From assembly GCF_900110435.1 (NCBI RefSeq), contig NZ_FODT01000007.1:186001-250000 (forward strand): a DNA stretch of 64,000 bases, in the 5' to 3' direction. The stretch comes from Rhodopseudomonas pseudopalustris. Lineage in GTDB: Bacteria > Pseudomonadota > Alphaproteobacteria > Rhizobiales > Xanthobacteraceae. A program made the position numbers and the translations under genes. Under the pieces are notes generated by a model. That model saw nothing but the letters and a program-made list of their open reading frames with translations. It did not search any database and was not told where the DNA came from. Positions 5,783 to 12,232 of this stretch are shown piece by piece. Position 1 is the stretch's first letter; each line of letters starts with the position of its first letter.

Positions 5783-7198
5783 ATGACCGCCAAGTTCACC
5801 GATTACATCGTCAAGGACATCGGCCTCGCCGAGTTCGGCCGCAAGGAAATCTCGCTGGCCGAGACCGAAATGCCCGGCCTGATGGCGACGCGCGAGGAAT
5901 ATGGCCCGAAGCAGCCGCTGAAGGGCGCCAGGATCGCCGGCTCGCTGCACATGACGATCCAGACCGCGGTGCTGATCGAGACGCTGACGGCGCTCGGCGC
6001 CGACGTGCGCTGGGTGTCCTGCAACATCTATTCGACCCAGGACCATGCCGCCGCGGCGATCGCCGCCGCCGGCATTCCGGTGTTCGCCATCAAGGGCGAG
6101 AGCCTGGAGGACTATTGGGACTACACCGCCCGGATGTTCGACTGGCACGGCGGCGGCACCCCGAACATGATCCTCGATGACGGCGGCGACGCCACCATGT
6201 ACGTCCATCTCGGCCTGCGCGCCGAGAACGGCGACACCGCGTTCCTCGACAAGCCCGGCTCCGATGAGGAAGTGATCTTCTTCGCGCTGCTGAAGAAGCA
6301 GCTCAAGGACAAGCCGAAGGGTTACTTCGCCGAGATCGCCAAGAACATCCGTGGCGTCTCCGAGGAAACCACCACGGGCGTGCATCGCCTTTACGACATG
6401 CAGAAGGCCGGCACGCTGCTGTGGCCGGCGATCAACGTCAACGACTCGGTCACCAAATCGAAATTCGACAACCTCTATGGTTGCCGTGAATCGCTGGTCG
6501 ACGGCATCCGCCGCGGCACCGACGTGATGATGTCCGGCAAGGTCGCGATGGTCGCGGGCTTCGGCGACGTCGGCAAGGGCTCGGCGGCGTCACTGCGCCA
6601 GGCCGGCGCCCGCGTGATGGTGTCGGAAGTCGATCCGATCTGCGCGCTGCAGGCGGCGATGGAAGGCTATCAGGTCGTGACCATGGAAGATGCGGCGCCG
6701 ATCGCCGACATCTTCGTCACCGCCACCGGCAACAAGGACATCATCACCATCGAGCACATGCGCGCGATGAAGGATCGCGCCATCGTCTGCAACATCGGCC
6801 ACTTCGACAACGAGATTCAGATCGCGCATCTGAAGAACCTGAAGTGGGACAACATCAAGCCGCAGGTCGACGAGATCACCTTCCCGGACGGCAAGCGGAT
6901 GATCCTGCTGTCCGAAGGCCGCCTCGTGAACCTCGGCAACGCCACCGGCCATCCGTCCTTCGTGATGTCGGCGTCGTTCACCAACCAGACGCTGGCGCAG
7001 ATCGAACTGTTCGCCAACAACAAGGACGGCAAGTACAAGAAGGAAGTCTACGTCCTGCCGAAGTCGCTGGATGAGAAGGTCGCGCGCCTGCACCTCGCCA
7101 AGATCGGCGTCAAGCTCACCGAACTGCGCAAGGACCAGGCCGACTACATCGGCGTCAAGGTCGAGGGCCCGTTCAAGGCGGATCATTATCGGTATTGA
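5783..7198 (+). CDS. ahcY: Adenosylhomocysteinase
   Basis: 471 residues. It hydrolyses S-adenosylhomocysteine to adenosine and homocysteine, relieving product inhibition of methyltransferases. ATG 5783 follows AGGAAA (5771-5776). The N-terminal catalytic domain contains [19 protein letters not shown]. The NAD-binding domain has [13 protein letters not shown] near residue 255, and the C-terminus ends FKADHYRY as usual for the family, where the lysine and tyrosine reach the NAD site of a neighbouring subunit. Length is typical of bacterial AhcY with the extra inserted segment. It is followed by repeat remnants and a strong hairpin at 7304-7330. No SAH riboswitch was recognised upstream. Confidence 0.97.
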
Positions 7199-7263
7199 TG
7201 GGGGAGGGCGGCGGTCGCTGCGCTCGCCGCCATCTCGCACTGCCGCTGTCGTTATCGCACAGC

Positions 7264-7303: not shown

Positions 7304-7330
7304 AAGCCCCGGAGCGATGCTCCGGGGCTT
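7304..7330. terminator. Bidirectional rho-independent terminator
   Basis: A 12-bp perfect stem (7304-7315 with 7319-7330) with a three-base loop, flanked by AA on one side and TT on the other. It lies between the convergent ahcY gene and the Argonaute operon and could end transcripts from both sides. Confidence 0.85.
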
Positions 7331-7395
7331 TTCGCTAGCTAGAAAAATCGACCGCGACAAGGTGTTCGAAGTAGAGGCGCTTTTCACCTGAGCTG

Positions 7396-8850
7396 TTAGA
7401 TATAGCGAGCGTAGTCCGAGCTGATCTTCTGATTTGTTGTGTACTTCAGTACTTCGCCAACTGCACGGGCAGCGCGAATTGGAATTGGTAACTTCTGATT
7501 CATTTGTGTGGAATTCCAATTGACTTTGGTTAGAGCCAATACCTCTCCTGCGATCTGTGCGACTGTGCTGTCACTCCCTTGGTATGGGCAAAGCAGAAGT
7601 GGGCGCGGGTCGTACTGACCTGGATAAGTCCCATAGTAAGGAATGCTTCCATTTGTATAAAGTAGGCCCTTTCCGTCCAGCTCCACAAAAGTTCCTCTCA
7701 TTACTGGATAGTTTCCATCCCGAAGTACTTTTACGGAGTATGATTCCTGGATCCAAACGAGATCACGAAGTTCGGCGCCCGCTTCGTCAATCGCGTCAAA
7801 AATGCCTGCCGCCTCTTCTTCTCGAAACTGAGAAGTCTTGAAGACTATGACACGTGCAGGGTAATGTTTGTGGTGGTTCTTGTAGGCCGACAGTGCATCT
7901 CGGATGAGTTCAAAGGCGTCCTCCCGAGTCATGTAAGGATGGCGCCCTCGACTCTCAGTCTGCGATCGCTTTCCTCTGAGAATAAAGCCGCGACCTCTTT
8001 CATCAAACATCTGCGCCGCGCTTGTGAATAGCTGTTGGCCACCCACTTCGCGGTAGAAGCTAATGCCGATATAGCAAGCTCTGAACTCGCCGTCCTGAGG
8101 CATCTTTCGCCAAGGGATGCGTCCAGTCCCTTTGTAATAAAGCGTGGTAAGGAGATTCCATGTTCGATCTGCTTGCTCTTGGATCTTTCTGGATCGACTT
8201 TCTTTGACCTTCAGGGGAATCTTGGCGCTCTCATCAAGTACGTCTTCCCACACGATCTGAATCGGAAAGCTAAGCCCCATCGCTTTTGCTTTGAGCATTC
8301 CGCGAAAGTCTGGCGCGTCCGAGCCGCCACTATCATCCTTCTCGACTGTGGCCTTGGAATCGACCTTCGCATTCCAAACGCGCTCGATCAGTTCGACGGG
8401 TAAGGCGATAATCGCCACGTGGGGGCGGCGGCTGCTCTCGTCGAGAGTCTCAAGCTGTTGAACGATCTCATCGACAGCTAATTCCACGGCCTTTGTGTGA
8501 TTGGGCTCTTTCCTAATCTTATCAATTTTGGACTGAGAAATTGCCGCCGTCGCCCCCTCCTCGATTTCGAATTTGCAGCGGAAGGGATTTCTATTTCCCA
8601 GGCCAGGAAAATCTGGATGTAGATTAGGATGCTTCTCGCCGCTGCCGGTAAAGCCGGCCGATGCGTCCGCAAGAAATTCCTTCGTATTCTCCACAGTCTT
8701 GGCGCTGCCAACAACTGCGATTTTAATGGCGTCTCCTAAAGGGGTTTGAAGAGGTCCAGCTTCGAACAGTCCTAGTCGGGGGTCCGGATGATGATGTTTG
8801 TCACCAAACTCAAGGTGGGGTTCGTCGAATATCTTCGTTTCGAATCTCAT
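7396..8850 (-). CDS. Short prokaryotic Argonaute (MID-PIWI), catalytically inactive
   Basis: 484 residues, the size of short pAgos, with no N or PAZ domain. The N-terminus has the signature EPHLEFG (10-16) and [12 protein letters not shown] (23-34). A MID-like part follows, with [11 protein letters not shown] at 149-159. The PIWI part begins around 235 ([17 protein letters not shown]) and includes YIGISFYR (260-267), VIVFKTSQF (334-342) and LTKVNWNST (440-448). Where cleaving Argonautes carry their first two aspartates, this protein has S264 and T339/S340, so it should bind guide and target without slicing. It overlaps the upstream APAZ gene by four bases (ATGA), so the two are translationally coupled. 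In known systems such a protein forms a heterodimer with its APAZ partner and senses invading DNA. GC is visibly lower than in flanking genes, suggesting acquisition. Confidence 0.9.
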
Positions 8851-10166
8851 CCGAACATGCGCTCCTGTCCATCATCTGATTCAGTGGTGCGCCTCTTTTG
8901 AGCTCCCCAAACGTCCTCAGGTACTCGCGTTGAGAGAGTGACCGTAGGAGGCTCGCCAAACCTCAATCGCTGCTCTGGTGCCGGTGTTGCAAAGAGGCTC
9001 TCTTGATCGCGCTCGGACTGAGTCAGAAAGCGATGCCACATAATGACTTGCCCTCGTAGCGATGCGCTGTTGTCCAGCCGTTTCTTGCCAGCTAACAGTG
9101 CGGATGGATAGGAATGCGGGATAAATCCATTAGTTGTGAAGAAATAGGTAGGGCTAACAATAAGGTACCATTGATCGTAGAGTAATTCAAATCGCGGGAT
9201 GAAGGCGTGGTGCCGAACAAAATCGATCTTGCTCTTTTCAATTTTGTTCTCGGACACGTTCACTATTTCGGTTGAAGTTCTCTTTTTCGATGCCCCGTAA
9301 GAAAATGAGCGCGGTGTGTTTTCTGAGAAGGCGCGAGCGTAATATATCTTTCGCTCTTTATCCCATGATAGGTCTTTGCGAAATTGATGGTCCAGCGTCT
9401 TGCGCAGCAAGAAAGAGAAATTATTCCGTTCGTGGCTATCTTCGTGAAATGCTAGGAAAGATGTTGCTATCGCTTCCACTTGATCGGGATCGACAATGTG
9501 GCGGCAGACTGATTCACGGGGGTCGCTAAATGACCAGAATGTTTCGCCTTTGATTGCCCAATCGAAGCGAGGTTCGTCTCCTTCTAGAAGAATCGCAGCC
9601 GCCTTCTTGGGCGTGTAAGGAGTAGACGAGACGAATAATTCTGATGGGTATTGCACTGGCAGGATGTTAACCAGCGCGTCTTCGCCGCCCCCAATTGGGG
9701 GGACATAGTAACCGAATCCAGCTTTTGGGACGGTTAGAGCGGCCAGTCGATCGACGGCGCGTTCATCTAGTACATCAACGATCTTATCGAATTGAAGTCT
9801 ACGATCGTCATCGTCGACCTTGCCGGCAATTTCCTTCCAATAAAAAGTATCATCTGATTTCCGGTAGAGAACTATAATTACAGGAAGGTTCGATCCTCTC
9901 CAATACGCCAAGTCGGTTGAACGTAATAGGTAGCTGAAGCTGGTCTCATCTTCAGAGGTGTATCGCGCTGCTTCGGTGGCTTTGACCTGAACTGCAATCA
10001 TTCGGGCCAGAGGCTTACCTTTGTCCATGACCTCCGCAATTCCATCGACCCCAGCTTCCAGGCGCGAGCGCCCGTCGAATTGGAAGCCGATGTGAAGGAA
10101 GCGCAGACGAACCGAAGTCTCGCCGATTTCTCCCAAGAGCTGGCTGGAGGTAATTTTCTTGGTCAT
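8847..10166 (-). CDS. DUF4365 nuclease-APAZ protein (DREN-APAZ-like effector of a SPARDA system)
   Basis: 439 residues, first gene of the Argonaute operon. Residues 8-75 match the DUF4365 version of the PD-(D/E)XK nuclease fold: GEIGE (12-16), G39-V-D41-G, and VQVKAT (59-64) giving the E-D-QxK active-site set. The rest, from about 170 to 439, has no obvious enzyme motif and corresponds in position to the APAZ domain that binds short Argonautes. This domain order with a downstream short pAgo matches SPARDA, in which guide-directed target recognition by the Argonaute unleashes indiscriminate DNase/RNase activity of the DREN domain and cell dormancy or death. The start ATG 10166 has no ribosome binding site, and a promoter-like sequence lies so close that the message may be leaderless. 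The APAZ call is from context and length, not from a profile search. Confidence 0.85.
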
Positions 10167-10171
10167 GCTGA

Positions 10172-10200
10172 AATATAGAACAATTCGGGAACACTGTTAA
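10172..10200 (-). promoter_or_regulatory. Candidate sigma-70 promoter of the Argonaute operon
   Basis: Read on the minus strand: TTAACA, 17 bases, TATATT, ending five bases before the start codon of the nuclease-APAZ gene. Both hexamers differ from consensus by one base. The short distance implies a leaderless or nearly leaderless mRNA, consistent with the missing Shine-Dalgarno sequence. Confidence 0.45.
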
Positions 10201-10336
10201 GCGGCATTTGAAGATATTGATAGCTTTATGCGAGATTTCGCTTTGTTTTGGACTTGTAGTATCGTGATACCTGGCAGAGGGATTGATGTTGCCCGCAGTC
10301 TCCAGTTCGGCGGGCGGCCGATGATAACTTCATCGG

Positions 10337-10479
10337 CCCGTAGGGCGGCCGAGTGCGGTGTCATTTGCCATTGCACCCGGACAAGCCCCGCGGCTGTTCG
10401 GCGGGTTACGCCTTCGGCTAGCCCACCCTACGAAGAATGCGCTTGCTGTCGCGGATGTCGCTGCGCTCATCCAAGCTAC
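10337..10479. repeat. Interspersed palindromic repeat, copy 1
   Basis: Starts CCCGTAGGGCGG and runs through CTGCGGCTGTTCGGCGGG-type sequence to CCACCCTACGAAGAATGCG and GGATGTCGCTGCGCTCAT. Copies lie at 11246-11343 and 12090-12232. Much of the 321-base gap between the Argonaute operon and the first toxin gene is this repeat; the rest (10201-10336) is AT-richer with nothing recognised. Confidence 0.85.
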
Positions 10480-10487
10480 GTGGACCG

Positions 10488-10910
10488 CTACCTCCCCCTC
10501 CAGGGATCAACCACCGTAATCCCGCACTCGGCGAAATCCGCAACATTGCGCGTCGCCAGCCGGGCGCCGCGGGAGCGGGCGATGGCGGCGATCTGGGCGT
10601 CGATCTGACTGATGGGTTGGCCGCTGTGTCGCCGGCTCGCCGCGATGGCCGGGTAGGCGTCTGCGGCGTCGGTGTCGAACGGCAGCACGCGACCGGCGAG
10701 GTCGCTCTCGAAGATCGGTCGCGCGGCGGCGATCAGGTCGTCGCGGCGGCGTCCTTCCGGCAGCAGCGCCAGGCCGTAGAAGATCTCCGCCTGCGTCAAG
10801 CTCGTGGTGAACAAGCCGGCGATCGGTTGTTCGCCGATCCATGCCATCACCGCGGCATCCGGCTTTGGACGCATCAGCTCGGAAATGACGTTGGTATCAA
10901 GGACGATCAT
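10488..10910 (-). CDS. PIN-domain toxin, VapC/FitB type
   Basis: 140 residues, a typical VapC-sized PIN ribonuclease. The acidic residues expected at the metal site are visible: MIVLDTNVISE (D5 and E11), TQAEIFYGL, and DAQIAAIA, followed by LATRNVADF. Such toxins cut RNA and stop growth when their antitoxin is lost. The start codon overlaps the antitoxin stop by four bases, so the pair forms one operon with the antitoxin first. It is the first of two PIN toxin modules lying between copies of the same repeat and next to the Argonaute operon. Confidence 0.9.
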   Translation of the reverse strand: MIVLDTNVISELMRPKPDAAVMAWIGEQPIAGLFTTSLTQAEIFYGLALLPEGRRRDDLIAAARPIFESDLAGRVLPFDTDAADAYPAIAASRRHSGQPISQIDAQIAAIARSRGARLATRNVADFAECGITVVDPWRGR

Positions 10911-11194: not shown

Positions 11195-11245
11195 ATGGGC
11201 AGGCGAGCAAGCGTTGAAGAGGCGACATCTTAAGGTTCGGCGTAG

Positions 11246-11343
11246 CCCGTAGGGCGGATGAGCGTAGCGTCATCCGCCATTGCGCCGAGACAAGCCCTGC
11301 GGCTGTTCGGCGGGTTACGCCTTCGGCTAACCCGCCCTACGAA
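11246..11343. repeat. Interspersed palindromic repeat, copy 2
   Basis: Starts CCCGTAGGGCGGATGAGCG and ends CGCCCTACGAA. The end of the repeat overlaps the 3' end of the second PIN toxin gene, whose TAG stop codon (11337-11339 on the minus strand) is part of the repeat. Confidence 0.85.
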
Positions 11344-11747
11344 CTGAACGGATCGACCACCGCCGCCCCTGTCGGTGCGAAATCCGAGACGTTGCGGGTC
11401 ACCACGGTGAGTCCGTGTTCGAGTGCGGTGGCGGCGATCATCAGGTCGGCGCTGTCGTTGCCGAGTGCGGCGCTCAGCGCCCCCCAGCGCCGGGCCGCGC
11501 GCAGATCGAACGGGACGATCCGCTCGCCATAGACGGTCAGAACGCGGTCGAGCCAGGCGGCGAGGGCGCGTGCGAAGTCCGGGTCGGTCGTGCGCTGCCG
11601 CGCGATGCCGCGCTCGATTTCGCCGATGCTGATGACGCTGAGGAACAGGTCGGCCGTTCGCTGCCGCTCGAACCACGCGACGACCTGCGGGTCGCGCTGC
11701 CGCTTGCGCAGTTCGGACAGCGTCACGGTGTCGATCAGAAACATCAC
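11337..11747 (-). CDS. PIN-domain toxin, VapC type
   Basis: 136 residues. Metal-binding acids are visible in MFLIDTVTLSELRK, ISIGEIERGI and NDSADLMIAATAL, with TRNVSDFAPTG near the C-terminus, as in PIN ribonucleases that cut tRNA or mRNA. The start overlaps the Phd-type antitoxin gene by four bases (11744-11747). The last codons and the stop fall in an interspersed repeat, so the original C-terminus may have been trimmed by the repeat's arrival, though the protein is of normal length. Confidence 0.9.
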   Translation of the reverse strand: MMFLIDTVTLSELRKRQRDPQVVAWFERQRTADLFLSVISIGEIERGIARQRTTDPDFARALAAWLDRVLTVYGERIVPFDLRAARRWGALSAALGNDSADLMIAATALEHGLTVVTRNVSDFAPTGAAVVDPFSS

Positions 11748-12037: not shown

Positions 12038-12089
12038 TACGGCGATGGTCGATCGCGGTCAAGCCATCGCTGCGCGGTACTCACCAGAG

Positions 12090-12232
12090 CCCGTAAGGCG
12101 GATGAGCGCAGCGTCATCCGCCATTACGCCGAGACAAGCCCTGCGGCTGTTCGGCGGGTTACGCCTTCGGCTAACCCGCCCTACGAAGAATGCGATCGCC
12201 GTCCCGGATGTCGCTGCGCTCATTCGGGCTAC
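12090..12232. repeat. Interspersed palindromic repeat, copy 3
   Basis: Same family as 10337-10479 and 11246-11343. Like copy 1 it carries the 3' extension GAAGAATGCG and GGATGTCGCTGCGCTCAT that copy 2 lacks. The gap 12002-12373 contains only this repeat and the element at 12283-12325. Confidence 0.85.

Follow-up and report, generated by a model that had tools for sequence, protein, structure and literature searches.

Short prokaryotic Argonautes (pAgos) have an inactive PIWI domain without the catalytic tetrad, and for the SPARDA system of Novosphingopyxis baekryungensis (NbaSPARDA; PDB 9jsb, 9jsp, 9jsz and 9jt2) the guide type, trigger and activation have already been published (PMC12205087). 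That work left open whether other SPARDA systems form filaments as well (PMC12205087). The PDB contains filament or active complexes of both Nba (9jsz, 9jt2) and Xau (9qcc), and no further SPARDA structure paper was found among the matches listed from the SPARDA filament literature. XauSPARDA (Xanthobacter autotrophicus; 9qbl, 9qbq and 9qcc) and the Enhydrobacter aerosaccus SPARDA (9qbp) have the same architecture as the operon described here and match it in fold, but by score they are more distant from it than Nba (pAgo 2.3e-176 and 4.2e-179, effector 2.7e-120 and 3.3e-118, respectively); their matched effector chains in the PDB begin 14 and 22 residues further upstream, possibly because of tags. 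According to its description (PMC10810196), TmuRE-Ago of Thermocrispum couples a DUF4365-APAZ protein to a short pAgo, is RNA guided, targets DNA, degrades DNA nonspecifically and has Q and K in its active site. It is likened to our operon by that description and prefers a 5'-OH guide RNA, whereas the operon here keeps the 5'-phosphate contacts of Nba. The SPARTA and SPARSA systems (TIR- or SIR2-APAZ) have a MID-PIWI protein and an APAZ partner in common with it at weaker sequence and fold matches; however, their effectors are NADases.

The window analyzed here is a 64-kb stretch of the Rhodopseudomonas pseudopalustris genome (5.27 Mb in 28 contigs, with two Photo_RC genes). As the initial annotation had described, its ORF list contains a SPARDA-type pair of genes on the minus strand, of 439 and 484 residues, coupled by a four-base overlap (8847-8850). 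The DREN-APAZ effector gene (8847-10166) comes first and the short pAgo (MID-PIWI) gene (7396-8850) second. By Nba numbering, with limits from PMC12205087, the DREN nuclease domain comprises effector residues 1-146 (9729-10166, minus strand) and carries the catalytic residues D41, Q60 and K62, and the APAZ domain comprises residues 161-439 (8850-9686, minus strand). A possible operon promoter, TTAACA-17-TATATT, lies on the same strand at 10172-10200, five bases upstream of the start codon of the effector gene; it is the position that argues for this candidate, since the motif scan found 3 such sites where 2.4 (sd 1.6) were expected. The only further ORFs of at least 100 residues within the insert that carries the operon are one antisense to the pAgo gene and one at the right edge.

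Both proteins match known families over nearly their full length. The effector matches Pfam DUF4365 at residues 13-143 (1.3e-22), in agreement with the nuclease fold proposed in the initial annotation, the PADLOC model Aga_REase (Argonaute-associated REase, PDLC02398) over residues 1-435 (5.6e-173) and the NbaSPARDA chain 9jsb_D over residues 1-433 (2.9e-180). The pAgo matches the PADLOC model pAgo_I (PDLC02376) over residues 3-484 (1.2e-173) and 9jsb_A over residues 1-484 (6e-250); its match to the general Pfam Piwi model is weak (0.013) and under the cut-off of that model. Matches of this size in both proteins lie far beyond chance and exclude chance ORFs; a length of 484 residues with a full-length match to the short pAgo model likewise excludes a long pAgo, and an effector that Pfam, PADLOC and the PDB all identify as a DUF4365 nuclease led us to reject SPARTA and SPARSA.

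The APAZ assignment of the C-terminal region was borne out by both sequence and fold. In sequence, it has the PADLOC and PDB matches above, and effector residues 152-430 match 9qbl_A, from a PDB entry titled as lacking DREN domains. In the comparison of the AlphaFold model of the effector (31 sequences; mean pLDDT 76.3, pTM 0.56) with the PDB, the solved SPARDA effectors rank first. Because of this pTM and of stretches with pLDDT below 50, only domain-wise fold matches count, and how the domains are arranged cannot be taken from the model, given whole-chain rmsd values of 15-23 Å in the top 16 fold matches. The best domain fit is to 9vx1_B (227 residues; 2.0 Å over 253 columns; TM 0.94 by target length). 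This chain of a guide-bound complex probably represents the APAZ part, judging from its length and from the NbaSPARDA study, in which guide-bound complexes show no DREN (PMC12205087).

We compared the two proteins with the N. baekryungensis locus (L076), using the functional residues named in PMC12205087. Identity to this reference amounts to 348/484 aligned residues in the pAgo and 263/436 in the effector. The catalytic residues are all kept (3/3), which upholds the D-QxK part of the nuclease motif claimed earlier. In the guide pocket, 13 of the 14 contacts are identical to Nba, including the 5'-phosphate contacts R183, K187 and K240, and this makes an RNA guide and a DNA target likely. The exception is N181, which is replaced by D, as in 9 of 66 aligned rows. 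In NbaSPARDA, position 181 contacts the first guide base (PMC12205087); therefore, the preference for a 5'-A could differ from that of Nba.

The other contact sets are kept to different degrees. The sensor loop is identical to Nba at 23/28 positions and the bridging loop at 13/16, as are the PIWI-PIWI filament contacts at 6/7 (E253 to D), the DREN-tetramer contacts at 6/7 (N17 to T), the MID-DREN docking contacts at 5/6, the MID-PIWI and MID-MID contacts at 5/7 and the Ago-Ago dimer contacts at 3/3 (R301, E268 and S174). Main-chain substrate contacts of DREN are identical at two of four positions. In contrast to the filament contacts, the APAZ-APAZ dimer contacts are mostly absent (1/6 identical).

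Conservation was assessed in 66 sequences, namely the window and 65 relatives (effective numbers at 90% identity, 31 and 41). D41, Q60 and K62 are invariant in all 66, a level that random sets of columns reach with a frequency of 0.011; for the guide pocket this value falls to 0.0001, its conservation being far above that of random columns. Against random columns of the same 66 sequences, no significant conservation was found for the PIWI-PIWI contacts (0.24), the DREN tetramer (0.10), the Ago-Ago dimer (0.31), MID docking (0.46), DREN docking (0.26), the MID interfaces (0.87), the APAZ dimer (0.66) or the substrate contacts (0.81). Single positions within these interface sets are invariant, namely R285, E360, D480, R301 and N86 in the pAgo and Q29, D31, R33, E45 and R122 in DREN (the first four of these in 66/66). 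At two APAZ dimer positions it is Nba that is the odd one, position 261 being H in 62 of the 66 sequences and position 354 being Y in 52, so other members may make APAZ contacts of their own.

With near full-length homology of both proteins, all three catalytic residues, 13 of 14 guide contacts and the gene order of NbaSPARDA, the SPARDA-type reading of the initial annotation holds; judged from sequence, the operon is an ordinary close member of the characterized SPARDA family, within the NbaSPARDA group. One scan of genome contigs gave 112 related stretches, of which 93 were confirmed and the best 80 of the 93 were kept, giving 78 loci. Judged from their titles, nearly all of these are Alphaproteobacteria, and two of the 65 tree rows (L004 and L023) are MAGs labeled as other phyla. 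Both genes are intact in 65 of the 78 loci and overlap in every one of these 65, by 4 bases in 45, by 1 in 12 and by 8-17 in 8, with start codons chosen by script; the remaining 13 are contig-cut, split or frame-broken. In one locus (L010:5277-7992), the effector match is split by about 1.4 kb, a natural interruption.

The closest relative in both gene trees is the pair of Bradyrhizobium sp. AS23.2 (L002; support 100/95 and 95/91), and the nearest SPARDA kin belongs to the Nitrobacteraceae. A Bradyrhizobium copy is 89% identical in the pAgo and 76% in the effector; no paper on a Bradyrhizobium SPARDA was found by title among the matches listed from the SPARDA and Argonaute literature. These values, and about 72% and 60% identity to NbaSPARDA, lend no support to the proposal that the operon diverges enough to call for separate characterization, and the guide type and trigger, singled out for such work, are already published for NbaSPARDA. 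Both trees group the window into identical sets of 9 and of 21 rows, and deeper branches differ between them for several long rows (e.g., L031, L039, L046 and L070), congruence being judged informally. The 9-row set spans hosts of several families, so the two genes move together between these. Evolution has been faster in the effector gene than in the pAgo gene, with end branches for the window of 0.26 and 0.097, respectively.

Relatives are also found on plasmids. At E 1e-5, 99 of 72,556 plasmid records match, 87 of these with a query coverage of 80% or more; only ten reach at least 60% identity, the others being less closely related short pAgos, and 50 of the 99 plasmids are predicted to be conjugative. 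On one plasmid, NZ_CP087720.1 of Roseomonas sp. OT10, the pAgo match overlies an IS5 transposase, a second natural interruption. A phage-borne system was rejected, as tblastn at E 1e-5 gave zero matches in 50,697 phage records. Within the genus, none of the 15 other genomes has an orthologue, and distant short pAgos, 32-34% identical, occur in two; in other genera of the family, one of nine genomes (G024) has an orthologue, at 54%.

The operon is carried by an insert of roughly 3 kb with low GC (7331-10335, right end approximate), delimited by GC and by comparison with sister genomes. GC drops to about 0.5 between 7.3 and 10.3 kb, with 0.41-0.60 per 100 bases over 7401-10300, against about 0.65 around it. 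To the left is ahcY, convergent with the pAgo gene, and between the two a stem search found a terminator-like stem of 12 pairs (7304-7330). ahcY is matched over nearly the whole query in 14 of the 15 same-genus genomes (the exception is G001). Similarity to the window stops at the end of ahcY (7198-7199) in 5 of these 14 and runs to the end of the stem (7328-7336) in the other 9, part of this comparison having used a query that ended at 7335.

On the right side, four of the seven ahcY-bearing loci compared match a repeat starting at 10336, and the other three resume similarity only at 10785 or 11043. This 144-base repeat has three copies (10336-10479, 11245-11388 and 12089-12232; the latter two 67% and 85% identical to the first), which surround two PIN-domain genes on the minus strand (10488-10910 and 11337-11747), and similar copies are found behind ahcY in several sister genomes. 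The right end is uncertain because the other copies account for the sister matches equally well or better and because similarity resumes late in those three loci; in one sister genome (G003), about 60 bases separate the ahcY side from a repeat match. Scans of the 64-kb window for tRNAs and for Rfam families at the gathering threshold found nothing, so no tRNA marks the insertion, and no target-site duplication was identified by eye in the flank sequences inspected. The insert carries no integrase, since it holds no further ORF of at least 100 residues besides the antisense and edge ORFs.

Judged from its low GC and from the lack of a counterpart in sister genomes, the operon probably arrived horizontally. 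ahcY is absent near all 78 related SPARDA loci, within at most 8 kb per side and often less, which suggests that the insertion behind ahcY was an event of its own. The N. baekryungensis operon differs in its genome place, as it follows a large gene. This gene (L076:3436-6675, 1,079 residues, directly before the operon) looks like hsdR of a type I restriction system; therefore, the Nba copy too may sit among defense genes.

Other cargo is found behind ahcY in the sister genomes. By Pfam and PADLOC, recognizable defense genes occupy this place in 4 of the 14: a McrC-like protein in G012 (Pfam McrBC 5.3e-73, PADLOC none) beside an AAA protein (AAA_5 3.4e-14), a PifA-like KAP NTPase in G010 (7.7e-62), a DSR2-like SIR2 protein in G015 (5.4e-172) and a Septu-like PtuA protein in G007 (2.7e-191) beside a PDC-M01B protein (3.4e-105). 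Four more genomes have low-GC3 genes with weaker or no labels there. In G011 this is a NACHT protein (Pfam 1.6e-6, PADLOC none); the labeled sites (McrBC, PifA-like, DSR2-like, PtuA and NACHT) are loci L145, L148, L151, L153 and L159. G006 has a three-gene set in which one protein matches DUF626_VIII (3.1e-27) and the others match weakly, G002 a weakly HATPase-like protein and G005 two genes without family matches. The weakly labeled or unlabeled cargo, all on the minus strand, consists of a trio of radical-SAM/CYTH, methyltransferase-like and hydrolase-like genes (L154:671-5555), a HATPase-like gene of 611 residues (L146:4454-6286) and two genes of 382 and 273 residues without family matches (L156:539-2495), and these are candidates for unrecognized defense systems. 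No such cargo was seen by eye in the ORF lists of G003, G004, G008, G009, G013 and G014, and in the literature one paper matched Rhodopseudomonas together with a defense hotspot, whereas nothing was found that links ahcY with a defense island.

Taken together, these results favor a SPARDA defense operon of the NbaSPARDA group that would act by the NbaSPARDA mechanism, a reading to which we give a probability of about 95%. The short pAgo and the DREN-APAZ protein would form a heterodimer, in which the pAgo would bind a small guide RNA that carries a 5' phosphate and begins with AU. Pairing of the guide with matching plasmid or phage DNA would move the PIWI sensor loop and let the units polymerize into a filament, and the filament would join four DREN domains, switching on an indiscriminate nuclease and leading to cell death or dormancy. 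We infer the guide type, the filament, the collateral activity and the protection from NbaSPARDA. The conserved residues, the intact overlapping genes in 65 of 78 loci, the relatives on plasmids and the filament structures of Nba and Xau all point to a mechanism of this type.

A GC far below that of the host and the lack of an orthologue in 15 other genomes of the genus indicate that the insert may be recent, and among the 13 related loci without both genes intact, some are contig ends and some have frame breaks. The operon could thus be SPARDA by descent, silent or decayed in its host and kept only as recent cargo; however, both frames are open over their full length, the catalytic residues are complete and a promoter-like site lies just before the operon, so we regard decay or silence as quite unlikely. 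The differences from Nba at position 181 and on the APAZ dimer surface would also be compatible with a guided system whose DUF4365 partner cuts the target only, without collateral killing. This is the least probable of the alternatives and in our view highly improbable, as the catalytic triad and the DREN contacts Q29, D31, R33 and E45 do not vary among the 66 sequences and the nearest relative studied so far acts as a collateral nuclease (PMC12205087). For the NbaSPARDA-like operon favored here, a broader reading that joins site and mechanism is tentative, and we consider it somewhat less probable than its negation: (i) the stretch behind the ahcY terminator would be a chromosomal hotspot of the genus where whole defense systems (SPARDA, McrBC, DSR2-like, Septu-like, PifA-like and perhaps NACHT and the unlabeled ones) swap by recombination of the conserved ahcY flank with the repeat/PIN region beyond, none of them bringing its own integrase; and (ii) the filament would be the step shared in this SPARDA group, whereas the APAZ contribution to the guide-induced dimer would be peculiar to Nba.

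The operon adds an intact SPARDA closely related to a solved one, from a bacterium that carries photosynthetic reaction-centre genes, and offers a second system for testing which of the NbaSPARDA contacts are important. Its interest lies in the candidate hotspot and in the contrast between filament contacts that are mostly kept and APAZ dimer contacts that are mostly lost. The site behind ahcY is also a place to seek further defense genes in sister genomes, some of them unlabeled.
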